Below are positions 46,600 through 62,349 of a DNA stretch of 64,000 nt, piece by piece (within the stretch, counting starts at the first letter, position 1; each line of letters opens with the position of its first letter). The translations under genes were made by a program, and so were the position numbers. Source of the DNA: Bifidobacterium sp. B4142 (GTDB taxonomy: Bacteria; Actinomycetota; Actinomycetes; Actinomycetales; Bifidobacteriaceae); assembly GCF_026537325.1 (NCBI RefSeq), contig NZ_JAFNMJ010000006.1, forward strand, positions 80,837 to 144,836, in the 5' to 3' direction. The notes below the pieces were generated by a model. That model was not told the DNA's origin, ran no database searches, and saw only the letters and a list, made by a program, of their open reading frames with translations.

Positions 46600-49086
46600 T
46601 CAGCCGCGGATCAGGGCCAGGGTCAGCATGTCAGGGGTGGGGCACTCATTGCCAGCCTGAATCCTCACCCTGACAGACCGGTCGGGCAGGGCATTCAAGC
46701 CTTGCCCATTCAGGGGGTACCGGTCGAGGACCGTGCCGTGCTCATGGCTCCTGACTGGTTGCCCCAGCTCCAAGCCTTCCGCTCGCAGAGAATAACGAGC
46801 TGTGCTGTTCTGGCTGCGCATGGCCACCTCCAGCATCCTTGCTTTCCCAGTGGCATCATGGAGCCGGTAGGAGAAGCAGCCGCCAGTCAGTGCGCGACGG
46901 GTGTTCGCTCCTTCGATCAGCTCCTGCCGGTCATTCCGACCCTGATATTCATGGTCGATCTCGGACTGCTGGGATCCGCATTTCACCTGATCGCAAATCT
47001 GACGCTCATGGGCCTGTTCCTGAACATCAATGTTTTTCAAGATGCGATGAACGCGGTCTTTATCCCAATCCTGTGCCCAAGGCAGATAAACCGAGTACCT
47101 GGAGGCCTCTATAGAGGTGAAGGGGACCAGCAACAGGCGCGAGTCGGTCCACTCGGGGTCCCTTTCCGCCTCCCGGGCTGGTGCGTGCGGTCTGGCGACG
47201 GCCACCTCGATGGCGCCGTCGTCCTGGGGGTGGGGCAGAAGGAAGTCCTTGGGCTCTCCCAGGAGCAGAGGCAGGTCGCCAAGCGGGCGCAGAGGACCGG
47301 CGGCGATATGACCGGCTCGGGAGTCGTCTGCCTTCAGGCCCTCCAGATCAGCGTCATCGCTGCGGGCAGCCATGACCTTGACACCGCGCAGCAGGCTGAT
47401 CCAGTCCGAACCGTCAGGCAGGGGCTCGGCAGTCACCCGGACCCGGTGGGCCACCTCCAAAGTTGCTTGTCCAGTCCAGGTCAGGCGCAAATGGTCGAAG
47501 CATGGGCTGTTGTTTGAAGCGGACCTCGTTGGTTCGACGGTCAGCTGGGCCTGCTGTCCTTGCATGACCCGGTACCTGGCATCCTCAAGCCACCAGGGAT
47601 GACGTAGGTAAAGGTCCACGGTCTGTTGCTCCTCCGGCGGACCTTCCAGGTCCAGACGGCCCAGGTTGGCTGTTCCGGGGCCGGGAGCATAGGATAGTCC
47701 GACGCGCAGTCCGCGGGCGGACCAGTCCAGGACGGCAGGAATGAAGAGGTTGACCACCAGGGACTCGGATTTGCTGCCGGGCTCATTTCCTGGTTGGCGT
47801 TCGAAGATCATGCTGTTGTAGCGTGCGTGATTCTCCAGGCCTGTGCCAACGCAGCACCAGAAGGAGCGCTGGGCGCTGGAGTAGACCCGGTAATGCCGTG
47901 GACGCATAGGGGTGAAATAGACGAAGCCGTGCTCGTGGATGCCTACTGTGGAGACCAGATGATTGACCAGCACCCGCTCGTAGAAATCCAGGTATCGGGC
48001 CTGCCCTGTGCGCCTATAGAGGCTCAGGGCCAGCTTGGCCATGTTGCAGCTGTTGCAGGTCTCCAGGCCTTCCCGGGAGGTGACCACGGCGGAGAAGTCG
48101 TCCGGCGGGTTGAAATGCTCCGAGACGGAGTGGGCACCGATGGAGACCGTGCGCCGGTCCACCACCCCATGCCAGAAGGTGTCTACGGCCCTGCGATAGG
48201 TTTTCTCGCGGGTGATCTCAAACAGACGCTCGTAACCCAGGACCTTGGGGATCTGCGTGTTGGCATGCAGGCCTGTAAGCCGATCCTTGCCGCCGGCCAG
48301 CGGTTCGAAGAAGGCCTGGTCGGTCAGGCGGCGGGCCTGGCGCAGATAGCGTTCTCTCCCGGTCAGCTGGTATAGACGGGCAAAGACATCGTTCAATCCT
48401 CCGTATTCACAAGACAGCATGGCTTGGAAATCCTGCTCGGCAATGGCGTCCGCTAGATTGCACCACCAGTCAGCCAGCTGCAGAACCATGTCGTGGGCCA
48501 TGGCGGAGGCATCTGCTGCTTGGCTGTTGTTTTCAGGGATTTGGAAGGCCTGCCAGCAATCCAATAGACCCGCCATGAGCTTGTGGAGGTTGTAGAGGGG
48601 AACCCATGCGCCTTGCAGATCGAATGACTGTGCCTGGATATGGCCTTTTCGCAGGCTTCGGAAGAGCTCGGCGCTGTGGGGCATGCCGCCTAGGAAGCCG
48701 TCGCCGGAGGCTCGTTGACATTCACGCAGGACAGTCAACATATAGGTTGCCCTTGCCAGGAAGCGGTGATCGAGCAGAGTCTGCCAGTATGCCGCCAGGC
48801 CGGATAGGTAGTGGCCGCCCATATGGCCATCCAGGCCCATGGATTCCCAGTTAGGGTAAGGGCTGTCCTGGTGGGGCAGGCCGACCTCGCGCCGGTATGG
48901 GGCCAGCAGACGGTCAGGATCCAGGCTGAGCAGGTAGTCCGCACCGGCCTGCTGGGCATCAGCATAGGTACTGCCCGGGGTCAGGCAGATCTGGGACGGG
49001 GCAAAGGTGAAGTACTCATGCTCCTGCCCATGTTTCCGTCGGAGCTGGTTTGTGGGTGATGCGGATCGTACGTGTGTATCGGTCAT
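46600..49086 (-). CDS. Beta-L-arabinofuranosidase-type glycoside hydrolase (GH127/GH146 clan)
   Basis: 828 aa from the ATG at 49086, with AGGAGG upstream. The N-terminal DUF1680-type (alpha/alpha)6 barrel has YPNWESMGLDGHMGGHYLSGLA. Active-site elements follow the cysteine-nucleophile glycosidase scheme: a Glu in SVSEHFNPP (about 323), the zinc ligands Glu342 and Cys344 in ETCNSC, and the Cys pair 411-412 in FWCCVGTG. C-terminal beta domains follow. No signal peptide, so it acts on imported arabino-oligosaccharides. Its pattern is nearer the larger Bacteroides-type enzymes (GH146) than HypBA1. A LacI-type operator core overlaps its promoter. Confidence 0.82.
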   Translation of the reverse strand: MTDTHVRSASPTNQLRRKHGQEHEYFTFAPSQICLTPGSTYADAQQAGADYLLSLDPDRLLAPYRREVGLPHQDSPYPNWESMGLDGHMGGHYLSGLAAYWQTLLDHRFLARATYMLTVLRECQRASGDGFLGGMPHSAELFRSLRKGHIQAQSFDLQGAWVPLYNLHKLMAGLLDCWQAFQIPENNSQAADASAMAHDMVLQLADWWCNLADAIAEQDFQAMLSCEYGGLNDVFARLYQLTGRERYLRQARRLTDQAFFEPLAGGKDRLTGLHANTQIPKVLGYERLFEITREKTYRRAVDTFWHGVVDRRTVSIGAHSVSEHFNPPDDFSAVVTSREGLETCNSCNMAKLALSLYRRTGQARYLDFYERVLVNHLVSTVGIHEHGFVYFTPMRPRHYRVYSSAQRSFWCCVGTGLENHARYNSMIFERQPGNEPGSKSESLVVNLFIPAVLDWSARGLRVGLSYAPGPGTANLGRLDLEGPPEEQQTVDLYLRHPWWLEDARYRVMQGQQAQLTVEPTRSASNNSPCFDHLRLTWTGQATLEVAHRVRVTAEPLPDGSDWISLLRGVKVMAARSDDADLEGLKADDSRAGHIAAGPLRPLGDLPLLLGEPKDFLLPHPQDDGAIEVAVARPHAPAREAERDPEWTDSRLLLVPFTSIEASRYSVYLPWAQDWDKDRVHRILKNIDVQEQAHERQICDQVKCGSQQSEIDHEYQGRNDRQELIEGANTRRALTGGCFSYRLHDATGKARMLEVAMRSQNSTARYSLRAEGLELGQPVRSHEHGTVLDRYPLNGQGLNALPDRSVRVRIQAGNECPTPDMLTLALIRG

Positions 49087-49164
49087 GACCCCTCCTTGCG
49101 GCAAATATCTAGTGGCCGCGCACGACGACCAGCGAAGCAGGGGCCGACTATGCTGCTGGAAGTA

Positions 49165-50386: not shown

Positions 50387-53300
50387 TTACTCGTGTGAAG
50401 TGTTTGTTTGGGTTTGTTGTCGTCGGTTTTTGGCGGCTGTGGCGGCTCCTGCGGCGAGCAGTCCTGTGGCGAGCAGGAGGAGCATGCCGTTTCCTCCGGT
50501 CAGGGGCAGGCTGGCGATGGACAGGTACCGGTAGGTGTTGCTTGTGTCGGTTTGCTGCTGTCTGCCGTCCTGGGTCCAGTCGATGGCTGCGGGGACGGGG
50601 CCTGGCGTGTAGGCGGGCGTGGTGGCGTTCCAGGTGCCGTCCGCGTTGGGCGTCAGGTTTTTGCCGGCGGCAAGGCAGGCGCCTTGCTGCCGGGTTTGGT
50701 CGAAGCAGATGCTGGTGGCTTGTGGTTTTCCGGGGAAGCCGACCGGTCCTGGCCGGCTGGCCGGCCAGGCTTCAGCGGGCTCGCGCCCCAGCTGGCCGTT
50801 GATGTTGCTCCCCCAGGAGTACAGGTTGCCGTCTGAGGCCAGGCCGTAGGACAGGTTGTCCCATCCGGCGCTCACCTGCACCCAGGTCAAGCCGGAAGGC
50901 CCGTCTGCCGGCGCCGCCACCTGGACCGGGGTATGCCGCTCAATGGTGGTGCCGTCCCCGATCTGGCCGTAATCGTTGTTGCCCCAGGCGTACAGGCGCC
51001 CGGCAGAATCGATGCCAAGAGACGTGCTGTTGTGGACGCTGACCTGCTTCCAGGATTGCCCAGCATAGGAAGGGCGGGCCTGGGCCAGTGTACACACCAT
51101 AATATTGGCGTCCCCGTTGCCGACGCTGCCGCTGAAGCTGCTGCCCCAGCCGTAGGCGTTGCCGTCGGAGCCGATGGCCAGCGAGCTGTAGTCGCCCATC
51201 TGGAACTGTCCCCAGGATGACACGCCCTCTGGTTTGGCCACAGGGACAGGGGTGAGCCTGTCTGGCGTTATTTGCCCGGTGCCCAGCTCGCAAGCCCTGG
51301 AGTATCCCCAGCCGTAGAGCTGGTTGTCCGAGCCCAGAGCCAGGGAATGCCAGCCCCAGCCGCTCATCCGCTTCCAGGTGAACCCTGAGGGCGCATGCTC
51401 CGGCAAGCTTACCCGGACGGGAGTGTATTGCCGGGTGGTGGTCCCGTTGCCTACATAGCCATGCTCATTGAGGCCCCAGCTGTAGAGCTGGCCGTCGGAG
51501 CCCAATGCCAGCGCGTGCAGGCTTCCCGCCTCCACATGCTTCCAGGTGAACCCTGCTGGCGCGTCTTGGGGCTTGTCGACCTTGCCGGGCCGGGGGTCGG
51601 CCGGGATGCCGTTGATGGTCTTGCCGCCGATGCTGCGTCCCAGCGTGGCGTTCTCGTTGTCGCCCCAGCTGTAGATATTGCCGTCGGAGCCCAGGCCCAG
51701 TGTGAACATGTATCCTGCCGAGGCCTGCACCCAGGTGAACCCGGCTGGCGCGCCTTCGGGCTTCAACGCCCGGACCGGCTCATGCCGGTCGGTGGCGGTG
51801 CCGTCGCCCAGTTGGCCGTACTGGTTGCTTCCCCACGCGTACAAGTTGCCGTCCGAGGCGACAGCAGCGATGTTTCCTCTTCCTGCGCTGATTTGGCTGA
51901 ATCTGATGCCGCGCGGCTTGGGCGGGGTCAGGGTCACCTTGGTGCCTCCGGTCTCGGGTCCTTGGGCGGGGCTGATGGTCCAGTGCTGCGTGTCCGTCCT
52001 GGTCCACCGGGCGGTCAGGGTGATGTCATGGGTGACGGGCTGGGTGAAGTCGTAGGCCACATTGTCTTGGAACCAGCCGTCGAACAGGCAGCCGTCGGCT
52101 TTCGGGTCCGGCTGGGGGCGTTCCGCCTGCCCGTCCTGGGTGACGGCCTGGCTGGGGGGCATGCCCGTGGGGGCGGGGCAGGAGCTGTCCTTGGAGGTGA
52201 AGCCGACCTGGTATTTGGGGGCGATATATGTGTATTGCAGGTGCGCGTCCGGCTGCGGCCCGTTCCTGTTCCAGACGACCCTCACGTCCACGGCCCCCGG
52301 GTCATGCGCGGGCGTGGTCGCCTGCCAGGTGCCATCAGGGTTGGCCGTGATCCCCCCCATGGCCTTGGCCTGGCCGAACAGGACATCAGTAGGCGTGGTG
52401 GCGCCGGGGAAGACGACCATGACCGGCCGGTTCCGGTCGGTGGTGGTGCCGTCGCCCAGCTGGCCGTTGCCGTTGACTCCCCAGGTGTAGAGCTGGCCGT
52501 TCGAGCCGATCGCCGCAGAATGGTTGCAGCCTAGGATCGCGTATTTCCAGGTGAACCCGGCGGGCGCTCCTTGGGGCTTGCCGACCGGGATTGGCCTGCT
52601 CCTGTTGGTGGTGGTGCCGTCGCCCAGCTGGCTGTGTTCGTTGCTTCCCCAGATGTAGAAGCTGCCGTCCGAGCCTAAAGCCTCGGTATGCCAGTCGCCT
52701 AGGCTGATTTGTTTCCAGGTGAATCCGTCGGGGGCTCCTTGGGGCTTGCCGACCAAGGTCGGCGTGTGCCGGTCGGTGGTGGTGCCGTCGCCCAGCTGGG
52801 CTCTGTAGTTCTGTCCCCAGGTGTAGAGCTGGCCGTCCGAGCCGATGGCCGCGGAATGCTGCCAGCCTATGCTGACCTGTTTCCAGGTGAATCCGTCGGG
52901 GGCTCCTTGGGGCTTGCCGACCAGGACTGGCCTGCTCCTGTCGGTGGTGGTGCCGTCGCCCAGCTGGCCGTACTGGTTGTTCCCCCATGTGTAGAGGCTG
53001 CCGTCCGAGCCGAATGCTGCGGTATTCAAGTCTCCTAGGATGAATCGTTTCCAGGTGAATCCTTCTGGCGCGCCTTGGGGCTTGCCGACCGGGATTGGCC
53101 TGTTCCGGTTGGTGGTGGTCCCGTCGCCCAGCTGGCCATGGCCGTTGTCTCCCCATGTGTAGAGGTTGCCGTCCGAGCCGAACGCCGCGGAATGGGACCA
53201 GCCTACGCTGGCTTGTTTCCAAATGAATCCTTCTGGCGCGCCTTGGGGCTTCTTCACTTGGACTGGCGTGTTCCTGTTGGTGTTGGTGCCGTCGCCCAGC

Positions 53301-54028
53301 TCGCCGCCGCCGTTGTCTCCCCATGTGTAGAGGCTGCCGTCCGAGGCGAGGGCCGCGGAATGCATGCCGCCCATGCTGAGCTGGCTGAATTTGATGCCGC
53401 GCTGTGCTGGCGGGGTGAGGGTGACCTTGGCGCCCCCGGTTATAGGCCCTTGGCTGGGGCTGATGGACCAGTTGTCGTCTCCCTTGGTCCACCGGGCGGT
53501 CAGGGCGATGCTGCGGGTGACGGGCTGGTTGAAGTCGTAGGCGACATCGCCTTGGAACCAGCCGTCGAACAGGTACCCGTCCCTGGACGGGTCGGGGCTG
53601 GGCCGGCTGGCCTGCCCCCCGTCGGGGATGGTCTGCCCGCCGATGCTGCTGCCGCCGGCCGGGTCGAAGCTGACCGTCCAGGTTTGAGAGGATTGGGCCT
53701 GCGGCCGGCTGCCTGTGGTGTCGGGAGCGTCGGGCGCGGCCAGGGGGGAGGATGACGGCAGTGGGGAGGATGTGGTCAGCGGGGATGAAGGGGCTGGCGG
53801 GGTGGCGGTCAGCGCGCTGCCAGCGGCGTCGGGCTGCCGGCTATCTGCGCTGGGGGTTTCGGGGTCCTGCTTCCTTGGGTTTTCCAGGGTGGCGTGCGTG
53901 GCCGTGCCGGATGGTTTGCCGACGGTGGCATCGGCTGCGGCCAAGCCTCCGGCCAGGAGGCTGGCAGGCAGGATGACGACAAGCAAGATGCCGATGGCCC
54001 TGGCCGAGATGTTCGAATGCTGGCGCAT
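50387..54028 (-). CDS. LPXTG-anchored RCC1-propeller surface protein with InlB-type repeats
   Basis: 1213 aa from the ATG at 54028; an in-frame GTG at 54037 is possible. Signal peptide (ILLVVILPASLLAGGLAAADA), then a Pro/Ser/Thr-rich linker. Two similar modules follow. Each has an InlB/Flg_new-type repeat (DGYLFDGWFQGDVAYDF...LTARW; DGCLFDGWFQDNVAYDF...), a TIG-like strand (ISPSQGP-x-TGG-K-VTLTPP), RCC1 repeats (LYTWG-x-N-x-x-GQLGDGTTT; six in module one, seven in module two), and then a second TIG-like part (ITANPDGTWQATTPAHDPGAVDV). The C-terminus is LPLTG, a hydrophobic helix and a basic tail, which is a sortase signal. Probably a wall-anchored adhesin or binding protein; partner unknown. 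Confidence 0.88.
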   Translation of the reverse strand: MRQHSNISARAIGILLVVILPASLLAGGLAAADATVGKPSGTATHATLENPRKQDPETPSADSRQPDAAGSALTATPPAPSSPLTTSSPLPSSSPLAAPDAPDTTGSRPQAQSSQTWTVSFDPAGGSSIGGQTIPDGGQASRPSPDPSRDGYLFDGWFQGDVAYDFNQPVTRSIALTARWTKGDDNWSISPSQGPITGGAKVTLTPPAQRGIKFSQLSMGGMHSAALASDGSLYTWGDNGGGELGDGTNTNRNTPVQVKKPQGAPEGFIWKQASVGWSHSAAFGSDGNLYTWGDNGHGQLGDGTTTNRNRPIPVGKPQGAPEGFTWKRFILGDLNTAAFGSDGSLYTWGNNQYGQLGDGTTTDRSRPVLVGKPQGAPDGFTWKQVSIGWQHSAAIGSDGQLYTWGQNYRAQLGDGTTTDRHTPTLVGKPQGAPDGFTWKQISLGDWHTEALGSDGSFYIWGSNEHSQLGDGTTTNRSRPIPVGKPQGAPAGFTWKYAILGCNHSAAIGSNGQLYTWGVNGNGQLGDGTTTDRNRPVMVVFPGATTPTDVLFGQAKAMGGITANPDGTWQATTPAHDPGAVDVRVVWNRNGPQPDAHLQYTYIAPKYQVGFTSKDSSCPAPTGMPPSQAVTQDGQAERPQPDPKADGCLFDGWFQDNVAYDFTQPVTHDITLTARWTRTDTQHWTISPAQGPETGGTKVTLTPPKPRGIRFSQISAGRGNIAAVASDGNLYAWGSNQYGQLGDGTATDRHEPVRALKPEGAPAGFTWVQASAGYMFTLGLGSDGNIYSWGDNENATLGRSIGGKTINGIPADPRPGKVDKPQDAPAGFTWKHVEAGSLHALALGSDGQLYSWGLNEHGYVGNGTTTRQYTPVRVSLPEHAPSGFTWKRMSGWGWHSLALGSDNQLYGWGYSRACELGTGQITPDRLTPVPVAKPEGVSSWGQFQMGDYSSLAIGSDGNAYGWGSSFSGSVGNGDANIMVCTLAQARPSYAGQSWKQVSVHNSTSLGIDSAGRLYAWGNNDYGQIGDGTTIERHTPVQVAAPADGPSGLTWVQVSAGWDNLSYGLASDGNLYSWGSNINGQLGREPAEAWPASRPGPVGFPGKPQATSICFDQTRQQGACLAAGKNLTPNADGTWNATTPAYTPGPVPAAIDWTQDGRQQQTDTSNTYRYLSIASLPLTGGNGMLLLLATGLLAAGAATAAKNRRQQTQTNTSHE

Positions 54029-54469
54029 GATATGCACAAACCCCTATCCACGCATACGCGGTCATGCTTCCCAGTGCCCCCGCCTCATGTAAAGCCGCAA
54101 GCCGCACATGTATTCCCTACAACCAGAAACAACCTTATCACGCTCAGCCTCATCACTTTAAAGCGAAGCATCCCGCTCCCAGCAGCAGGGGCGTCCGTCA
54201 TACGGCTGCCCTTCACCTTTGGAACATTAACAGGGTAACTTTTTAGGGATTCTTGCGGGCTTGTCTGGTCGATTCCTCATGCTTATGTCGGTTCGTGGAA
54301 CAGTGAATGCCTGGGGGGTCCGAAGACATTCCGCTTGTGTGGAAAGCACCAGTTGTTGATTTTTGCATCGGTCGGTTACAAGTGTGGCTGATGACATTGA
54401 TCAGCAAGTGATTCCCTCTTACCTTCAAGTGAGAGAGACTGGCCTTGGGCAGGATGACTGGCTAAAGTT
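54029..54469. other. Intergenic region upstream of the RCC1 gene
   Basis: About 440 bp, richer in A+T than the genes beside it. It must hold the RCC1-gene promoter and the end of the metallopeptidase transcript. I found no convincing hairpin and no frame with coding character. AGGGG before 54037 is the likely ribosome-binding site of the RCC1 gene. Confidence 0.4.
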
Positions 54470-55543
54470 TTAGTGCCCGCAGGGCAACTGGTCCATATGC
54501 CCGCTGTAGTCGTGGTTGACTGCATTGGTATCCCAAGGGTAGGGCAGAGCGGTCTGCGGATATATGTCCGCAAGCAGGTCGTAGCCGATCGGGTCGTATT
54601 CGTGCAGCTCATTCCTGGTGTTGAGCGGGCCTCGGACCCCGTCCCAGGTGTCGTCGGCGCTCTCGGCCATGACGTTGAACCACATGGATGTAAGGGTGGC
54701 GAAGTACTCTTCGATGTTGCCGATCAGGTAGGTTCGCGGCCAGAGTCCAGCCTCCATTGCATGGCTGTAGGCGGCCTGGATTCGATGGGCCAGACTCTGA
54801 TCTTCCAGACGGTTGATGCCCAGCAGGTGGATGGCGTGGCCGAATTCATGGGCCAGTATGGACTCGTTAGGGTACCGGGTCTGATGCATGCCCTCAGTGA
54901 TGCGCTCGATATTGGCTGCGGAGATGGAAGTGACCGGGTCACCGATCATGCCGCCGTACCCTTCCACAGGGCGATCCATAATCTGGGCGCCGCCGCGATG
55001 TTCAGGTATGTCATAGACATCCTCATGAGGCCCGTAGATGGCGACCCTGGCCCCAAGGGAGATCATGGTCCGGGCTATCCGCGGCGATGCGGACATCATG
55101 GTGTCGATCAGGTCGGCCGCCAACAGCCGGGTGTGGTGCCTGACGTCTTCAGATGACTCGATGGGGATTCCGCAGCGGCAGTTGGTGAACTGCGTATACT
55201 GGCAGTGCCAGTTGTTGACCACGATCTCGACTTCCGGATCGGCCTGCTGACCCTGTTGATTGACGATGGCCGCTTCCGCTCGTACGGACAGGCGTCCCAG
55301 AACAGTGCGATCCAAGGGGTCTCTGGTAATCAACGTGGACCGTTTCTTGATGGGTTCATAGACATTGAGCAGATTCCACTCCACGTCGGTCCTCTCCATC
55401 AGCGGCAGAGGATGGTCGTCCAGGGACAGACGGAAATGCCTGGGATCTGAGGCTCCCTCCACCTCCTGGTCCCAGTAGAGCTCGATGCGTCGAGGATCGA
55501 TCATCTGGCTGAAAATCATCCGAGGCGGGTTGGTGTGGGGCAT
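54470..55543 (-). CDS. HEXXH zinc metallopeptidase, gluzincin type (ATLF-like)
   Basis: 357 aa from the ATG at 55543, with AAGGGAGA upstream. Residues 1-110 look like a beta-sandwich (IELYWDQEVEGASDPRHFRLSLDD). The catalytic half has YDIPEHRGG, ILAHEFGHAIHLLGI (His232, Glu233, His236) and a downstream NIEEYFATLTSMWFN, whose Glu278/279 would be the third zinc ligand. E-Y-F-A after HEFGH is reminiscent of the anthrax lethal-factor-like (ATLF) gluzincins. No signal peptide or transmembrane helix is visible, so it is either cytosolic or exported by a non-classical route. It lies beside the AraC, POT and GH127 genes and shares DNA motifs with them. Confidence 0.65.
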   Translation of the reverse strand: MPHTNPPRMIFSQMIDPRRIELYWDQEVEGASDPRHFRLSLDDHPLPLMERTDVEWNLLNVYEPIKKRSTLITRDPLDRTVLGRLSVRAEAAIVNQQGQQADPEVEIVVNNWHCQYTQFTNCRCGIPIESSEDVRHHTRLLAADLIDTMMSASPRIARTMISLGARVAIYGPHEDVYDIPEHRGGAQIMDRPVEGYGGMIGDPVTSISAANIERITEGMHQTRYPNESILAHEFGHAIHLLGINRLEDQSLAHRIQAAYSHAMEAGLWPRTYLIGNIEEYFATLTSMWFNVMAESADDTWDGVRGPLNTRNELHEYDPIGYDLLADIYPQTALPYPWDTNAVNHDYSGHMDQLPCGH

Positions 55544-55634
55544 GGGGATCTCCCTTCGTTGCAAAATCACCTTGCTGTTTTCATCCTATGAGCGTCGGCC
55601 GCGAAATCGGCCTGGCAGAGACCACTGCGTCATT

Positions 55635-55668: not shown

Positions 55669-55681
55669 TGTAGCGCTCAGT
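55669..55681. promoter_or_regulatory. Candidate LacI-type operator upstream of the metallopeptidase
   Basis: TTGTAGCGCTCAG, with palindromic core AGCGCT at 55672-55677 overlapping the AraC stop codon. The same core occurs before the GH127/146 gene and the ABC permease gene. Confidence 0.4.
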
Positions 55682-56528
55682 GGGAGTTGAAGTGCCTTTG
55701 GTGAAAGGTTCTTCGGTAGCGGGTGGGGCTGATGCCGGTGTTGCGTTTGAATACCTTCATGAAGTATTTGTCGTCCTTGTACCCGACGATGGCCCCGATG
55801 CCTTCCACTGTGTCGTCGGTCTCCACCAGCAGCGACTTAGCCGCCTCCATGCGGAAGCGTTCGATCTCCTGGGAAATGGTGATGCCGAACTTCTGCCGGT
55901 ATTTGCGCGATAGGTAGCTTTTGTTGTAGCTGAAGTAGTCGGCGATTTGGCTCAGGCTGATCGGCCCCAGAGCGTGTATGCGGATCCAGTCGCGCACCGG
56001 CTGCAGTTCATGAATGTTCATAGACGGGGTGTGCAGAAGCTGCTTGGCCTGCATGGTCACCTCATAAAGCACGCAGGCCAGGATAGCATTCAGATAGTGT
56101 TGATCGCCGTGCATCTGGTAGACGTCCAGCAACTGGTTGGTGATGACGGTGATCCGGTCCATGAACAGGTGCTCGCTGTAGGCAGGCAGGAGGATGCTCG
56201 AAGCCTCGTCCGCTTCGGGATCATCGCTGTTGCCTCTGACTGGGGTCAAGCCAGGCAGATTGAAATGCATCCAATCGAATCGCAGGCTCTCGGTGATGGC
56301 GCGAAATCCTCGATGCTCTAGGTTGGGAGGCACGATCAGGAAGGTGCTCGGACCCACCATGTAGCGCGTGTCGCCAATCTGCAAGGGCAAAATGCCCTGG
56401 ATGTTGCAGATGATTTCGAAGGTCCTGATGACGCGTCTGCTGTGCTGCCAGCCTGGGTCGCCTATAAAGGTGCCGGCAGACACCAGCTCGGGCTGCGGCT
56501 GGCTTTCCTGGTCATAGAACAATGTCAT
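55677..56528 (-). CDS. AraC-family transcriptional regulator of the POT-GH127 operon
   Basis: 283 aa from the ATG at 56528 (AGAGGT upstream). N-terminal cupin-like sensor (IICNIQGILPLQIGDTRYMVGPSTFLIVPPNLEHRG) and C-terminal double helix-turn-helix (ISLSQIADYFSYNKSYLSRKYRQKFGITISQEIERFRM; VEGIGAIVGYKDDKYFMKVFKRNTGISPTRYRR). It is divergent from the transporter-GH127 pair and just upstream of the metallopeptidase, with a shared motif before both promoter regions. Likely activates these genes on binding a plant sugar, by analogy with similar clusters. Confidence 0.9.
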   Translation of the reverse strand: MTLFYDQESQPQPELVSAGTFIGDPGWQHSRRVIRTFEIICNIQGILPLQIGDTRYMVGPSTFLIVPPNLEHRGFRAITESLRFDWMHFNLPGLTPVRGNSDDPEADEASSILLPAYSEHLFMDRITVITNQLLDVYQMHGDQHYLNAILACVLYEVTMQAKQLLHTPSMNIHELQPVRDWIRIHALGPISLSQIADYFSYNKSYLSRKYRQKFGITISQEIERFRMEAAKSLLVETDDTVEGIGAIVGYKDDKYFMKVFKRNTGISPTRYRRTFHQRHFNSH

Positions 56529-56562
56529 GAAAATCGACCTCTCGTCGGAGAAAATAGGTAAA

Positions 56563-56579
56563 AAAACCCCACGTATTGT
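56563..56579. promoter_or_regulatory. Candidate AraC site in the divergent AraC/POT region
   Basis: AAAACCCCACGTATTGT, 35 nt upstream of the AraC ATG and about 215 nt from the POT start. It is the partner of the motif at 55635. A separate GGGTC-GGT-GACCC dyad lies at 56703-56715, and a TATAAA box near 56760 may be the POT -10. Confidence 0.45.
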
Positions 56580-56794
56580 GAATTCTAGGCCACCGGCTAT
56601 GAGATTCGCCATCACTACCATTGAAGGCAGCATAGGCAGCGGAGCCTAGGCATATGAGAAAGAGACGGAACGACCGTGGCAGACCGAACCATACCAGCGC
56701 AGGGGTCGGTGACCCAGACGCCTGTAAAGAATCTATACCTCAAAATCATCCACCTTTTCTATAAATTCACCACTATTCCGGGAGCGATGCAATC

Positions 56795-58294
56795 ATGAAA
56801 CACACGGAGAGCACCTTGGAAGAGGTCAGGGACGACAAGGGCTTCTTCGGACATCCTCGTGCTATCGGGACCCTGGCTCTGGGCAATTTCTGCAACTCGG
56901 CCGCCTGGGGCGCATTCTACGCACTGATGATCTACTACCTCTACACCCCATTCTCCAAGGGGCTGGGGTTCTCCCAGGGGGATGCGGCTCTGATGATCGC
57001 GGCCATGGGAGCGGCCAACGGGTTGCTCAATATCGTGGGCAGCTGGCTGTCTGACAGGGTCCTGGGAATGCGTAAGGCGCTGATACTAGGCAATCTTCTC
57101 AAGGCCACAGCCTTCTTCATCCTTGCTATACCGCCGACCAGGCAGGTCTTCGGGCAGACCATGGCCTACATCGCCCTGGTGCTGCTGTCCATGCCCATCA
57201 TGGGGATGTCCAATGCCTCCCTGACCGGGCAGCTCTACCGCAAGGAGGATGCCCGCAGACGCGACGCGGCATTCACCATCCACCAGTTTGCCAACACGGT
57301 GGCTGGGATCATCACCCCGGTCGTGGTGGGCCAGATCGGTCTGAGCAACTACCATATCGGCTTCGCTGTGGCCGGGATCTTTGCCCTGCTCTACGGCGCG
57401 GCTATCTTCTTCACACAGTATCGGTTCTTTGGACCCCTGGGTGAGGCTCCCATCAAGCCCCTGTCAGCCCAGGAGCGCCAGAAGATACTCAAGGGTCTGG
57501 TCATCGGGCTAGTTTTGCTGGCGCTGGTCATCGCCGCCCTGGTCTTGACCAAGCATTTCAACCTGAATGCCATCATCAACGCCGTCACCACCTTCGCTTT
57601 CGTAGTACCCATCTGCTTCCTGGTCAACCTGTTCACCAAAAAAGACCTGACCGCCCGTGATCACACCCATCTTCGGGCCTTTCTCTGGTTCTTCTTCGCT
57701 CAGATCGTCATGGCCCTGGGCGCCACTCTGTTGACCAGCGCCATCGCCATTTTCCTGGACAAGAAGGTCAACCGGGTGATCTTCGGTATCACCATCGCCC
57801 CGGGTTCGCTCCAGGTCATCTACATGGTCATGGATCTGATAGCCGGGCCTATTTTCATCTTCCTGTGGACTAAAACTCGTGTCGGGGCAATCCGGACCAC
57901 CTATAAGTATGGTATGGGGCTGCTGGTCACGGCTCTGGCTTTCTTCACGCTGACCATACCCTCCCTGATTCTGGGTGGGAGCGGATCATCCGGCTACTCT
58001 CTTTGGTGGGTGCTGATTTACTACGCCTTCATGGCCCTGTCCGACCAGCTCGTAGGTCCGATCGGCAGCTCCCTGGTCTCCGGACTCTCTCCTGAGTCCT
58101 ATGAGACCCAGCTGCAGACGGCATGGAACCAGACCGCGGCCATCGGCAATGCCATTGCCATCATTTTCTTCAAATTCTTCCAGACGGCCGATCAGCAGGT
58201 CTATCTTTTCCCCATCGTGGCTGCGGCCCTGGCGACTGTTGCGCTGGTGCTAACCGTCTTCAGCCGTCACATAGAAAGGCAGATGGCAGCATGA
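56795..58294 (+). CDS. POT/PTR-family transporter lacking the ExxER motif
   Basis: 499 aa with about 14 hydrophobic segments. The N-terminus FFGHPRAIGTLAL and the later GLGFSQGDAALMIAAMG-x-x-x-x-L-x-x-x-GSWLSDRVLGMRKALILG place it in the POT (oligopeptide symporter) family. TM1, however, reads GNFCNSAAWGAFYALMIYYL where POT proteins have T-E-x-x-E-R-F-x-Y-Y-G-x...YYL: both Glu are Asn and Arg is Ser. That triad links proton binding to transport in known members. The stop overlaps the GH127 start (ATGA), so carrier and arabinosidase are made together. The substrate is probably a small arabinosylated peptide or arabinoside; that is inference. Confidence 0.82.
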   Translation: MKHTESTLEEVRDDKGFFGHPRAIGTLALGNFCNSAAWGAFYALMIYYLYTPFSKGLGFSQGDAALMIAAMGAANGLLNIVGSWLSDRVLGMRKALILGNLLKATAFFILAIPPTRQVFGQTMAYIALVLLSMPIMGMSNASLTGQLYRKEDARRRDAAFTIHQFANTVAGIITPVVVGQIGLSNYHIGFAVAGIFALLYGAAIFFTQYRFFGPLGEAPIKPLSAQERQKILKGLVIGLVLLALVIAALVLTKHFNLNAIINAVTTFAFVVPICFLVNLFTKKDLTARDHTHLRAFLWFFFAQIVMALGATLLTSAIAIFLDKKVNRVIFGITIAPGSLQVIYMVMDLIAGPIFIFLWTKTRVGAIRTTYKYGMGLLVTALAFFTLTIPSLILGGSGSSGYSLWWVLIYYAFMALSDQLVGPIGSSLVSGLSPESYETQLQTAWNQTAAIGNAIAIIFFKFFQTADQQVYLFPIVAAALATVALVLTVFSRHIERQMAA

Positions 58295-60462
58295 GTCAGC
58301 AATTCAATATGAGCGGGCCTATTGAGATCAGCCAGGCCAGCGTCGACGACCCCTTCTGGTCAGCCGAGCAGGAGCTGGTCAGAACAGCGGTCCTGCCCTA
58401 CCAATGGAGGGCTCTCAACGACCAGGTGCCTGGTGCTTCACCCAGCTACTGCATGCACAATTTTCGCGCTGCCGCCGCTCTCAACGAGAGGCTGAATGGG
58501 CAGGAGGAAAGTGGAGACTTCCAGCCGCCGACTTACACCAATCAGGGATTCCGCTGCCTGCCGAAGGATCCGGATCATCCCGATCCGGATAAGTTCTATG
58601 GTTACGTTTTCCAGGACACCGACTTCTCCAAATGGGTGGAAGCCGTGGGGTACTCCCTGGCGCATCATCCGGATGCCGAACTGGAGCGGCTTGCCGACGG
58701 GGCCATAGACATTGTCTGTGCCGCCCAACTGGACAGCGGATACCTGGACACCTACTACATCCTCAACGGGATGAACCGGCACTTCACCAATCTCAAGGAT
58801 CATCATGAGCTCTACTCCCTGGGCCATTTGATAGAGGGTGCCATCGCCTATTTCCAGGGCACGGGCAAGACCAAGCTTTTGCATGCGGCCGAGCGGTTTG
58901 CCGACTATGTGGCTGCGACTTTCGGACCGGCCGACGATCAGCTGCACGGCTATCCGGGTCACGAGATTGCCGAGATGGCTCTGATCCGCCTGTATGAGAC
59001 CACCGGAATCAAGCGGTATCTGGACCTGGCGGCCTACTTCGTCAATCAGCGGGGAACAAGCCCCCTCTACTTCGAGCAGGAGGATCGGCAGAGGGCAGCC
59101 TATGAGCATGCCAACTTCACTGTCGACGACAGCAGGCCAGCACCCTATGCCTACTATCAGGCCCATGAACCGGTGGCTCAGCAACGTCAAGCCGTCGGGC
59201 ATGCGGTCAGGGCCGGGTATCTATATTCGGGAGTTGCCGATGTGGCCAGGCTGACCGAGGACTCTGCACTGAATGAGGCGGTGCATGCCATCTGGCGTGA
59301 CATTGTTGATAAGAAACTCTACGTCACGGGAGGGGTGGGTGCCGACGCGGATGCCGAATCGCACTCCTATGCCTACGACCTGCCCAACGACACCGGATAT
59401 TGTGAAACCTGCGCTTCTGTGGCTCTGATCTTCTTCGCCCGTAGAATGCTGCAGCTGGACCCCAGATCGGAATATGCCGACGTGATGGAGCTGGCCCTCT
59501 ATAACACGGTGCTTGACGGTATGGCCATGGATGGCAAGAGCTTCTTCTATGGCAATCCCCTCGAGGTCAGGCCCCAGACCAAGCTGAACAAGGATCCCCG
59601 CTACAGTTACGTGCCCGTCGTGCGTAAACGGTGGTTCGGATGCGCCTGCTGCCCGCCCAACTTGGCCCGCCTGGTCGAATCGGTGCAGAATTACGCTTAC
59701 ACCCTTGCCGAGGATGGGTCCACGTTCTTTGTACACCTCTACATCGGCGGTAGGATCCAGACGGACCTGGGGGAGGGGTCGATCGCTTTGCAGGTGCATT
59801 CGGAATTGCCTTGGAAGGGTGTAATCCGCCTAAAGGTTCAGGCTTCCGGTGATGGCTGGACCACCCTGGCTCTCCGTCTGCCTTCCTGGGCTGGCGGCGA
59901 TGCAGCTGCCGATGCGGTGACGGTCCGCACAGGCCAAGGTTCCTCGGATGTTATCAGCCGACGTGTGGAACAGGGGTACCTCTACCTTTCCGGTCCCTGG
60001 AAGAAGGGCGATCGGATCGACATCGACTTCGACATGCCAGTGCGTGCTGTTGCTGCCAATCCTCTGGTCAGCCAGGATGCGGACAAGGTGGCGGTGACCA
60101 GGGGACCCATAGTCTACTGCGCCGAGGAAAGGGACAACGGGGCCAACCTGCATCTGCTGCATCTGGACGGCAATGCCTTGTCGGGTGATGCAAGCCGCGT
60201 GAGAGTCGAGCCCTTCACTTTTCAGGCCGGGGCATATCTCGACGATTCTAAGGCCGAGGGTCATGTCGATGCGGTCAGCCGCAGCATGGTCAGACTGCGG
60301 GCGCCAGCCTGGCGGGAGTCAGCAGACGGGGCTGATACTGCTCCGCTCTACCGTCAATGGCAACCGGTCCGTCGTATGCCGACCACGGCCACCCTGATTC
60401 CCTATTTCGCTTGGTCTAACCGTGGCGAAAACGAGATGAGGGTTTTCTTGAACGTGGACTGA
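58291..60462 (+). CDS. GH127 beta-L-arabinofuranosidase (HypBA1-like)
   Basis: 723 aa from the ATG at 58291, overlapping the transporter stop by 4 nt; AGAAAGGCAG lies upstream. It aligns by eye along the length of B. longum HypBA1: VLPYQWRALND, VFQDTDFSKWVEAVGYSLAHHPD, LDSGYLDTYY, YDLPNDTGYCETCASVA, WFGCACCPPNLARL, the end PYFAWSNRGENEMRVF. Expected active-site residues are all present: acid/base Glu356, zinc ligands Glu372, Cys374, Cys453 and Cys454, with Cys453 the nucleophile. HypBA1 releases L-arabinose from Ara-beta-1,2-Ara and Ara-hydroxyproline. No signal peptide, so it acts inside on imported material. Confidence 0.93.
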   Translation: MSQQFNMSGPIEISQASVDDPFWSAEQELVRTAVLPYQWRALNDQVPGASPSYCMHNFRAAAALNERLNGQEESGDFQPPTYTNQGFRCLPKDPDHPDPDKFYGYVFQDTDFSKWVEAVGYSLAHHPDAELERLADGAIDIVCAAQLDSGYLDTYYILNGMNRHFTNLKDHHELYSLGHLIEGAIAYFQGTGKTKLLHAAERFADYVAATFGPADDQLHGYPGHEIAEMALIRLYETTGIKRYLDLAAYFVNQRGTSPLYFEQEDRQRAAYEHANFTVDDSRPAPYAYYQAHEPVAQQRQAVGHAVRAGYLYSGVADVARLTEDSALNEAVHAIWRDIVDKKLYVTGGVGADADAESHSYAYDLPNDTGYCETCASVALIFFARRMLQLDPRSEYADVMELALYNTVLDGMAMDGKSFFYGNPLEVRPQTKLNKDPRYSYVPVVRKRWFGCACCPPNLARLVESVQNYAYTLAEDGSTFFVHLYIGGRIQTDLGEGSIALQVHSELPWKGVIRLKVQASGDGWTTLALRLPSWAGGDAAADAVTVRTGQGSSDVISRRVEQGYLYLSGPWKKGDRIDIDFDMPVRAVAANPLVSQDADKVAVTRGPIVYCAEERDNGANLHLLHLDGNALSGDASRVRVEPFTFQAGAYLDDSKAEGHVDAVSRSMVRLRAPAWRESADGADTAPLYRQWQPVRRMPTTATLIPYFAWSNRGENEMRVFLNVD

Positions 60463-60475
60463 AGGCTGCCATCCC

Positions 60476-61903
60476 TCAAGCATGCTGCGGTTTCTGAGAG
60501 CGACGCGGGGCGGCCAGAATCAGCAGAACCTCCAGGGTGCCAACGATCAGCAGCAAGATCAAGGCATGCTGGGAGCCATTGATGGTGCCCAGCCGCCGGT
60601 CTGCCACTGCGGCCTGGCCTGCTGCTACGATGGTGGCCGCCAGGCTGCTGCCGATGGCTGCGGCGAACTGCTGGACGGTGTTGAAAATGGCGTTGCCGTC
60701 GGCCTGTTGCTCCGAGCTCAGCCGATGCAGACCGTTGGTCATGATGTTGCCGAAGCTCAGCCCGATGCCCAGCATGAAGAAAATATAGAGCACCAGGACG
60801 GTTATGGCTGTCAGTCGGCGGGCCGTCAGAGCAAATCCGAGGAGGCCGACAAAGGCAACACAGCTACCGCTGATGATGGGAATGCGCGGGCCTAGCTGAT
60901 CGTAGAGCCTGCCGGAGAGCGGTGCCAGAACAGCTCCGATCGCCGCACCCGGCAGCAACACCAGTCCGGCCTGCAGAGAGGTGCATCCATCAACCAGCTG
61001 CAGGTGGTTGGGCAAGATGAAGGAGAGAGCCAGGGCACAGATCTCGAATAGAATGTAGGCTCCGACATGCAGGGAGAAGCAACTGTCAGTGAACAAGTAC
61101 ACGTCGATGATCGGATAGGCCTGATGCTGGGCGCGGAGGCTGAACGCTGTCAAGGTGACAAGCCCCAGGGCCAGCGTTCCGCCAAACCTCCAGGAGAGCC
61201 ATCCTGCCGATGCGTTGCTGATGCCGAAGATCAGACCTACAAACCCTAGAACCATCAGGAACACGTCAAGCGGGCCCAGCCCGGCCGCTTGCCTGTCTGC
61301 GGACACAGGAACCGAGGGTATACAGGCCAGGCCGGTCACCAGCGAGATGACCAGTACTGGGATCAGGATGATAAAGACGAAACGCCATCCGATCGTGGTC
61401 GCTACCAAACCGCCGAAGGTGGGGCCGACGGCTGGTCCGATAGCTGTAATCAGGGTGCCTACGCCCATCATGGTGCCGATGCGCTTTATCGGGATCTCCT
61501 GGAGGATGATGTTGAACATCAGCGGCAGGGCGATACTGGTGCCCAACCCTTGTATGGCCCTTCCCAGCAGCAGGAGCGGGAAGATTGGAGCCAGCGCGTC
61601 GATGACCAGTCCGGTCAGGAAGAGCAAGTTAGCGCACAGAAAGAGGGTTCGGCTGCGGAACCGGCGCTTGAGGGCCGCCGAGAGCGGGGTGATGGAGGCA
61701 ACGACCAAGAGGTAAAGGGTGGTCATCCATTGCACGCTGGAGGTTCCGATGCTGAAATGGCTCATGAGGGCAGGGAAGGTGATATTCATGGCCGTTTCCA
61801 CGATCACTCCGCAGAAGGACATGATGCCAGTGGCTACTACAGCGCCGATTACCATACGGGGGATCGCTGTACTTTGCTCTTGGGCTGCTTGGGTTGAGCT
61901 CAT
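60476..61903 (-). CDS. MFS multidrug exporter, DHA2 (EmrB/QacA) type
   Basis: 475 aa with about 14 hydrophobic segments. Motif A in loop 2-3 is degenerate (LSAALKRRFRSRTLFL), motif C reads TAIGPAVGPTFGG, and LLLLGRAIQGLGTSIALPL forms TM4. These mark 14-TM drug-proton antiporters. AAAGGAG precedes the ATG. The start overlaps the stop of a MarR regulator (ATGA), the usual layout of a self-regulated efflux operon. It sits 13 bp from the convergent GH127 end. Confidence 0.88.
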   Translation of the reverse strand: MSSTQAAQEQSTAIPRMVIGAVVATGIMSFCGVIVETAMNITFPALMSHFSIGTSSVQWMTTLYLLVVASITPLSAALKRRFRSRTLFLCANLLFLTGLVIDALAPIFPLLLLGRAIQGLGTSIALPLMFNIILQEIPIKRIGTMMGVGTLITAIGPAVGPTFGGLVATTIGWRFVFIILIPVLVISLVTGLACIPSVPVSADRQAAGLGPLDVFLMVLGFVGLIFGISNASAGWLSWRFGGTLALGLVTLTAFSLRAQHQAYPIIDVYLFTDSCFSLHVGAYILFEICALALSFILPNHLQLVDGCTSLQAGLVLLPGAAIGAVLAPLSGRLYDQLGPRIPIISGSCVAFVGLLGFALTARRLTAITVLVLYIFFMLGIGLSFGNIMTNGLHRLSSEQQADGNAIFNTVQQFAAAIGSSLAATIVAAGQAAVADRRLGTINGSQHALILLLIVGTLEVLLILAAPRRSQKPQHA

Positions 61904-62349
61904 GAGTGAGACTCCTTTCCGGCCTGGGAGGAATCACCGGAATTCAAGGAGATGAAATAGGTCAGCACACGATCGAAGACAGCCAGATCACGCTGGTCGA
62001 ACTGGCGCTCCATGGCCTTTTGCTGGCTGTCTATATATAGCCGCACGGCTTTCTGCAGGGCCCGGGCCTTTGCGGTCGGAACAATGATGCGTTGACGGCC
62101 GTCCCCGGGATCCCGTTTGGCGCCGACCAGTCCGCTGGCCTCCATACGCTGCAGGATTATTGTCGTTGTAGACGGGCGGATGTCGAATTCCATTTCTATG
62201 TCCCGTTGGGTGTGGTCCTGGGACTCGCCCAGGAAGTCGATGATGGACATCTGGGTGCCCGTGAGCCCATATCGAGCCGCGTAGGCATCCATGGATCGTG
62301 ACATGAGGTTGGCTGCCCGTTTGATTCGCTTGCCGTAGTCTTTGCTCAA
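61900..62349 (-). CDS. MarR-family regulator of the efflux pump
   Basis: 149 aa with a TTG start, chosen because GGGAGGG lies just upstream and no ATG is available. The winged helix-turn-helix reads LTGTQMSIIDFLGESQDHTQRDIEMEFDIRPSTTTIILQRMEASGLVGAKRDPGDGRQRIIVPT, with the wing D-x-x-D-x-R-x-R. Translationally coupled to the DHA2 pump, so it most likely represses the operon until a drug or phenolic ligand binds. A SlyA-like palindrome lies 23 nt upstream of the start. Confidence 0.9.
   Translation of the reverse strand: MSKDYGKRIKRAANLMSRSMDAYAARYGLTGTQMSIIDFLGESQDHTQRDIEMEFDIRPSTTTIILQRMEASGLVGAKRDPGDGRQRIIVPTAKARALQKAVRLYIDSQQKAMERQFDQRDLAVFDRVLTYFISLNSGDSSQAGKESHS

Follow-up and report, generated by a model that had tools for sequence, protein, structure and literature searches.

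A POT-derived carrier lacking the ExxER motif is paired with a GH127 enzyme in Bifidobacterium sp. B4142: a candidate uptake module for hydroxyproline-rich glycoprotein fragments

The DNA analyzed here (the window; 64,000 nt) is from Bifidobacterium sp. B4142 (assembly GCF_026537325.1, contig NZ_JAFNMJ010000006.1, positions 80,837-144,836, forward strand), and gene coordinates at this locus are window positions. The window contains a gene for a POT-derived major facilitator superfamily (MFS) carrier without the ExxER motif (56795..58294, + strand, 499 aa; assigned from profiles, a motif alignment, and a tree). It is followed by a gene for a GH127 β-L-arabinofuranosidase-like enzyme (58291..60462, + strand, 723 aa; profiles and active-site alignment), and the stop codon of the first gene and the start codon of the second overlap in the sequence ATGA at 58291-58294. 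A gene for an AraC-family regulator, recognized by profile match (55677..56633, - strand), diverges from the carrier gene 161 bp upstream. The promoter region between the two genes (56634..56794) is strongly conserved in two relatives. Behind the AraC gene, on the same strand and outside the carrier operon, lies a gene for a putative M34-type metallopeptidase (54470..55570, - strand) with an N-terminal Ig-like domain and a catalytic domain containing an HExxH motif. This arrangement had been described in a sequence-only reading of the window as a POT-related carrier and a GH127 sharing an ATGA overlap, with a divergent AraC gene and a metallopeptidase nearby, and open reading frames (ORFs) and profiles bear it out throughout.

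The genome lies near the Bifidobacterium asteroides group, which we take to be bifidobacteria of the bee gut. Specifically, B. asteroides ESL0199 and B. polysaccharolyticum W8117 have carriers with 97-98% identity to that of the window. In a comparison of three strains all four genes are under purifying selection, which is strongest on the carrier (dN/dS 0.035-0.049, as against 0.09-0.13 for the GH127, 0.12-0.15 for the AraC protein, and 0.10-0.13 for the peptidase).

The carrier belongs to the POT/PTR2 sequence family, exceeding the curated cut-offs of both TIGR00924 (174.9 bits, cut-off 130.2) and PF00854 (58.5 bits, cut-off 27). Among solved structures it matches 4ikv best (E 7.8e-53; presumably a Geobacillus POT), and its homology to POT/PTR2 proteins of the SLC15 type extends over nearly the full length. 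Nevertheless, it lacks both Glu residues and the Arg of ExxER as well as the lysine of transmembrane helix 4 (TM4), and it belongs to a clade of its own. In a tree of 46 rows it falls within a group of 27 that is split 100/100 from 19 canonical POTs, a split at which the program warned of long branches meeting and which is rooted by midpoint only. The row for stretch L037 was trimmed at the front and that for L077 after 420 residues, and four spurious antisense ORFs were excluded from the tree and the motif counts. All 19 canonical rows keep the ExxER residues and the TM4 lysine. In the carrier clade the second Glu, the Arg, and the TM4 lysine are found in none of the 27 rows, the lysine being replaced by Gly in every one, and the first Glu is kept in a single row; one clade row, L083, is truncated and lacks the TM1 positions. 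The window carrier has Asn, Asn, and Ser in place of the Glu, Glu, and Arg. A Trp occupies the first TM1 tyrosine position in 17 of the 27 rows, and the acidic position of TM10 is Asp in the window carrier and in a relative from Olsenella but Gly in a second carrier from the same genome as the window.

In PepT2, as described in part of PMC11265797, the ExxER Arg and the TM10 acid hold the two ends of the peptide, the acid holding its N terminus. Because the clade has lost ExxER and the TM4 lysine, canonical proton coupling and peptide-carboxylate binding cannot be assumed for the window carrier. The sequence-only reading had reasoned that POT carriers move di- and tripeptides and that the substrate should thus be of peptide type. 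With the carrier in a separate clade without the signature residues, that step does not stand on its own. Plants provide precedents both for glycoside carriers within the POT superfamily (PMC5336358) and for the loss of ExxER (PMC6288477).

The GH127 gene product matches PF07944 with 352 bits and also contains the GH127 middle and C-terminal domains. Its nearest solved structure is 4qjy (581 bits), which we take to be a Geobacillus GH127, followed by HypBA1 (456 bits; PDB 3wre, by our assumption). Identity to HypBA1 is 42.5% over 478 compared aligned columns, covering approximately the N-terminal two-thirds. The enzyme had been said to keep every HypBA1 active-site residue, and indeed all 11 positions compared are conserved (His-142, Tyr-145, His-194, His-270, Arg-273, Glu-322, Glu-338, Cys-340, Cys-415, Cys-417, and Cys-418). 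They include the Cys3-Glu zinc site, the acid/base Glu, and His-142, Tyr-145, His-194, and Arg-273, which are given as substrate-binding residues of HypBA1 (PMC10850190). No signal or transmembrane segment was found by hydropathy scan. The gene product is a predicted β-L-arabinofuranosidase-like enzyme with a HypBA1-type active site. A second PF07944 gene is present in the window (46600-49104, - strand); its closest structure is 5opj (464 bits), presumably the GH146 enzyme BT0349, and the hydropathy scan detected no transmembrane or signal segment.

The predicted fold of the peptidase catalytic domain matches Pro-Pro endopeptidases best, that is, the fold of PPEP-1/2/3. A PDB sequence search with the peptidase profile returned chance matches only, and the placement rests on the predicted fold. 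Among eight aligned peptidase members, all have HExxH and a downstream Tyr and Glu, with 7 residues from Tyr to Glu (compared using the PPEP-2 numbering of PMC9147577), and six match the Pfam family ATLF at E <= 0.1 (best E 0.00027). The window peptidase is ~11-16% identical to PPEP-1/2/3 and differs from them in its additional N-terminal Ig-like domain and in the lack of a secretion signal; the hydropathy scan detected no signal or transmembrane segment. We regard it as a putative M34-type, Pro-Pro-endopeptidase-like, cytosolic enzyme. An identity with Svx, a gluzincin of plant pathogens proposed to cut extensins (PMC9266454), was rejected, the zinc-binding Glu lying 22 residues after HExxH in Svx and 43 here. 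In genomes G133 and G148 the peptidase match crosses one TGA, and the aligned proteins end a few residues before that of the window. A long M34-like peptidase gene (open frame of ~650 aa) adjoins an aminopeptidase P-type M24 gene in G100 (L156 9282-12736).

The pairing of carrier and glycosidase is repeated within the same genome, which has two carriers of this clade, each adjoining a PF07944 gene. In the second pair the carrier (C8:162544-164010) is accompanied by a GH146-type gene (C8:160278-161426), whose product, the sole neighbor enzyme searched against the PDB, matches 5opj and 8k7y best; GH127 and GH146 labels of neighbors follow the best BLAST or PDB match. Clade carriers occur in at least 14 of the 189 Bifidobacteriaceae genomes searched. 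The pairing was counted for 26 carriers in the 14 genomes with strong matches, one of them (G088:821609) a broken copy; the count excludes a broken copy in G136, a fragment of 55 residues in G066, and the second of the two pieces of G088:821609. A PF07944 (GH127/GH146-family) gene lies within 8 kb of at least 20 of the 26. Random placement, in which neither relatedness among the genomes nor contig ends were taken into account, gave an expectation of 0.58 and a maximum of 5 in 20,000 placements. The pairing is no accident. Two of the six unpaired carriers are near contig ends (G080:C9 and G066:C19), two are 10 and 14 kb from a PF07944 gene (G100 and G080:C1), and two have GH42 instead (G104 and G088:821609). 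Outside the family a similar set was found in the uncultured Olsenella isolate RUG001 (L037); the 139 remaining genomes of its family (140 in all) gave no such carrier at E <= 1e-40. A sample of the phylum (396 genomes) contained 32 carrier places beyond the window's own genome; the 28 that were checked are all canonical and have ExxER. The sequence-only reading had staked its case on the adjacency recurring elsewhere, as it does in Bifidobacteriaceae and Olsenella.

The genes around 24 clade carriers were compared with those around 19 canonical POTs, with 24 neighbor proteins as tblastn queries (E <= 1e-12). GH127/GH146 was found in 19 of the 24 stretches, an AraC relative in 14, GH36 in 8, an M34-like peptidase in 7, M24 in 5, and S15 in 3 (two loci). 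None of these was found in the 19 control stretches at this threshold; a weak AraC match appears in one control, L104, at a looser cut-off (E 2e-7). The queries came from the window and the 24 stretches themselves, so the choice of queries favors the 24; 16 of the 19 controls come from different families, and three span less than 15 kb. Furthermore, the 24 stretches cannot be counted as independent. Many of them are orthologous, two (L068 and L086) contain broken copies, and L081 and L082 overlap by 5 kb and have an S15, a serine dehydratase, and a GH36 gene in common. Part of the gene calls in the carrier stretches derives from codon score, and export was judged by hydropathy scan, not by a signal-peptide predictor.

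The Pfam families beside the relatives comprise M24 peptidases of the aminopeptidase P and prolidase types, S15 Xaa-Pro dipeptidyl-peptidase, GH36 melibiase, serine dehydratase, the oligopeptide-binding protein SBP_bac_5 (SBP5), M1, GH42, and GH2. In Olsenella the M34-like, GH146-type, carrier, and M24 genes follow one another on one strand with GH36 beyond. G088 has SBP5, M24, M24, M34-like, carrier, and carrier on one strand and divergent GH36 and GH146 genes. The order in G016 is GH127, GH36, carrier, M34-like, and a single cluster in G100 (L153 and L072 overlap) contains S15, GH146, DUF5695, AraC (reverse), GH127, carrier, M24, GH36, GH2, and carrier. On a contig of G016 other than that of the carrier, GH146 is found with S15 and SBP5 (L158 5573-12524) in a stretch without a POT-type carrier. 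The enzymes scanned for export showed no signal by hydropathy except for a cell-wall-anchored M34-type peptidase of G016. As an unbiased check, M24 genes were counted genome-wide in 10 genomes. Five of nine Bifidobacteriaceae have two copies, and of 11 extra copies in G100, G088, G080, and G066, seven are inside carrier stretches. One more extra copy is on G080:C13 with GH36, GH146, DUF5695, and S15; judging by gene order, this set may be the continuation of the cluster that breaks off where G080:C9 ends.

Some further observations concern these neighborhoods. A GH146-type gene set in G080 (L152 263-14000), in which no POT-type carrier was seen, may be half of a cut carrier cluster. The DUF5695 protein (~850-1180 aa) recurs beside GH127/GH146 (L072 2-3064, L075 17352-19901, and L081 7932-11483) and is a candidate for another glycosidase in this pathway. 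A GH3 gene adjoins the GH127 gene in B. asteroides ESL0199 (L035 11874-14819) and the GH127 scar in G144 (L086 10522-13446).

The four-gene set is intact in 3 of the 27 genomes of the window's genus (G000, G133, and G148) and scarred in seven. In G128, G132, G135, G137, and G145 stubs of the peptidase and GH127 genes lie side by side at the same site, and the genes that flank it downstream are retained wholly or partly. G136 and G144 retain broken pieces of the carrier and GH127 genes, the GH127 piece being very short in G144. No mixture of intact and broken genes among the four was seen in these ten genomes, which are those covered by the scar search; the other 17 gave no strong match. Just 3' of the GH127 gene, on the opposite strand, an LmrB-like efflux MFS gene overlaps a MarR-family gene (60476-62349, - strand), and this pair is retained in several relatives without the module. 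On the other side of the locus a long repeat protein (50387-54037, - strand; ~1213 aa), RCC1-like by eye, has a C-terminal LPLTG motif; its repeats differ, and they cross-match among relatives.

Taken together, these observations suggest, with a probability of about 60%, that the locus is one of the copies of a conserved module for the uptake and dismantling of glycosylated fragments of plant hydroxyproline-rich glycoproteins. The source would be extensins and related proteins, which a bee symbiont would probably obtain from pollen. According to part of PMC8012813, extensins have α-galactose on Ser and β-arabinofuranose chains on Hyp, and Hyp-Ara is found on grass-pollen allergens. The clusters, read from their sequences, would offer an enzyme family for each extensin bond (GH127/GH146 for arabinose, GH36 for galactose, and M34/M24/S15 for the Pro-rich peptide) and thus come close to an extensin kit. 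Enzymes that would cut sugar and enzymes that would cut peptide, both predicted to be cytosolic, stand beside one carrier, an arrangement best accounted for by a substrate that enters with both parts. It is this gene company, not POT membership, that argues for a glycopeptide. The earlier guess of a glycosylated amino acid or peptide thus gains support from the recurrent pairing and from the proline-directed peptidases and GH36 of the relatives.

In the proposed pathway an extensin-type protein would be cut extracellularly into small pieces by other enzymes or, in G016, perhaps by the cell-wall-anchored M34-type peptidase of the same cluster. The POT-derived carrier, in which Asn, Ser, Gly, and Trp replace the charged peptide- and proton-binding residues, would import β-arabinosylated Hyp or a short Hyp-glycopeptide. 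Cytosolic GH127 would strip the arabinose, GH36 in the relatives would take α-galactose off Ser, and the M34 Pro-Pro-endopeptidase-like enzyme together with proline-specific exopeptidases would free the amino acids. The arabinose would pass to the AraA pathway, for which the gene is present, and the divergent AraC protein would turn the module on. A more far-reaching proposal, to which we give somewhat less than even odds, is that the clade has a neutral glycan-binding site instead of the proton/peptide site and imports intact O-glycosylated (hydroxy)proline peptides for intracellular dismantling by Pro-Pro endopeptidase, GH127/GH146, GH36, and Xaa-Pro peptidases, a dedicated glycopeptide diet of bee-gut and other gut Actinomycetota.

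Several points weigh against import of a glycopeptide. Nine of the 24 stretches (the second pair of the window's own genome, its orthologues, and the broken L068) have the carrier and GH127/GH146 with none of the peptidase families tested, and two have the carrier with GH42 only. The 0/19 control is lenient, with queries from the same stretches and controls mostly of other families. The only peptidase of the window cluster is the M34 enzyme, with no M24, S15, or GH36 among the scanned neighbors, and its own genome holds two M24 genes only, the baseline number. The match to M34 is one of fold only, with a TM-score of 0.29 (query length) or 0.51 (target) at 16% identity, and in the window peptidase ATLF (PF07737) scores 19.3 bits against a cut-off of 27.4. 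A cytosolic endopeptidase fits peptides longer than the usual substrates of POTs, which are very small, and GH127 enzymes also cleave other β-L-arabinosides. The SBP5 gene in the carrier stretches of G088, G080, and G066 suggests that an ATP-binding cassette (ABC) importer may bring in peptides. Hydroxyproline dehydratase (HypD) was not recognized as a Hyp sink in the window's own genome, whose one PF02901 gene matches pyruvate formate-lyase best over the part scanned; further glycyl-radical genes are present in G100, G104, and G136, of which two from G104 were scanned and reached ~550 (HypD cut-off, 1100). Finally, proC was discarded as a marker of a Hyp pathway, since it lies near carriers in four genomes but is in each the only strong proC.

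Some of these points would equally fit a carrier for peptide-free sugar, β-1,2-arabinobiose or another β-L-arabinoside released outside, with the peptidase genes forming a separate nearby regulon. The Asn and Trp that replace the charged peptide site are common in sugar carriers, and the 11 of 24 stretches with carrier and glycosidase (nine GH127/GH146, two GH42) and no tested peptidase family are in keeping with this. Moreover, HypBA1 of B. longum acts on imported β-Ara2 (PMC7263609). Such a scheme leaves aside the runs of genes on one strand that combine carrier and Pro-peptidases in Olsenella, G088, G080, G066, and G100 (glycosidase genes lie within or next to these runs), the five genomes of the genus in which the M34 and GH127 genes are broken together, and the company of S15 and SBP5 that GH146 keeps in G016 even on a contig apart from the carrier. 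We consider it unlikely, though a serious alternative. We find it improbable that the carrier takes up other small plant glycosides (flavonoid or other arabinosides, or fragments of rhamnogalacturonan-II or arabinogalactan), with GH127, GH146, GH42, or GH36 matched to each and the peptidases incidental. The recurrent Xaa-Pro peptidases and the Pro-Pro-endopeptidase fold would then be left unexplained, against the presence of carriers beside GH42 and GH2, the best match of the other PF07944 protein of the window to 5opj, and a match of the GH127 to the NCBI aceric acid hydrolase model, though far under its cut-off (392.6 versus 950).

The loss of ExxER also raises the question of direction and energy. 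The motif has been lost from plant NPF2a proteins, and some of the NPFs that lack it work as efflux carriers independent of protons, while other members without it still transport actively, as stated in part of PMC6288477. That the window carrier is a passive facilitator or an exporter of arabinose or peptide overflow is, in our view, very improbable, and translational overlap with a cytosolic hydrolase would fit uptake better. It is hardly credible that the carrier is an ordinary di/tripeptide POT, coupled to protons, with an unrelated GH127 as its neighbor: the TIGR00924 and PF00854 scores agree with it, but ExxER and the TM4 lysine are lost and the pairing is far above chance.

The module as we interpret it, for import of glycosylated Hyp fragments, resembles the HypAA/HypBA2/HypBA1 system of B. 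longum (BLLJ_0208-0213) in targeting β-arabinosides of hydroxyproline-rich glycoproteins and in its intracellular GH127 with the same active site. In B. longum, however, the sugar is cut off outside and β-Ara2 is imported by an ABC transporter (PMC7263609), whereas in the window a single POT-derived carrier accompanies the glycosidase, and Pro-directed peptidases are found in the module or its relatives. Unlike at the B. longum locus, no ABC component was found among the seven window genes scanned (54.5-63.7 kb). The plant NPF carriers of glucosinolates and cyanogenic glucosides are likewise POT-superfamily proteins that carry amino acid-derived glycosides, but they are plant proteins, and the glucosinolate symporters keep the ExxER/K motif, according to the sections of PMC5336358 and PMC6288477 available. 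The bifidobacterial GH146 enzyme Bll4HypBA1 shows that GH146 can release Araf-β1-Hyp of a protein backbone; a carrier or peptidase partner is not mentioned for it in the available portion of PMC10850190. Searches of the open-access literature turned up neither a POT-type carrier coupled to GH127/GH146 nor the import of whole glycopeptides derived from hydroxyproline-rich glycoproteins. Bacterial use of these glycoproteins is known, and it is the carrier class within it that is possibly new.

The described bifidobacterial extensin route strips the sugars outside and takes up sugars. Import of whole glycopeptides, if true, would allow gut bacteria to draw nitrogen as well as carbon from proline-rich plant proteins of the wall and of pollen, and would represent a new bacterial substrate class for the POT fold. 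The module supplies testable genes in culturable bee symbionts, and its carriers without ExxER are natural test cases for how POT proteins are energized.

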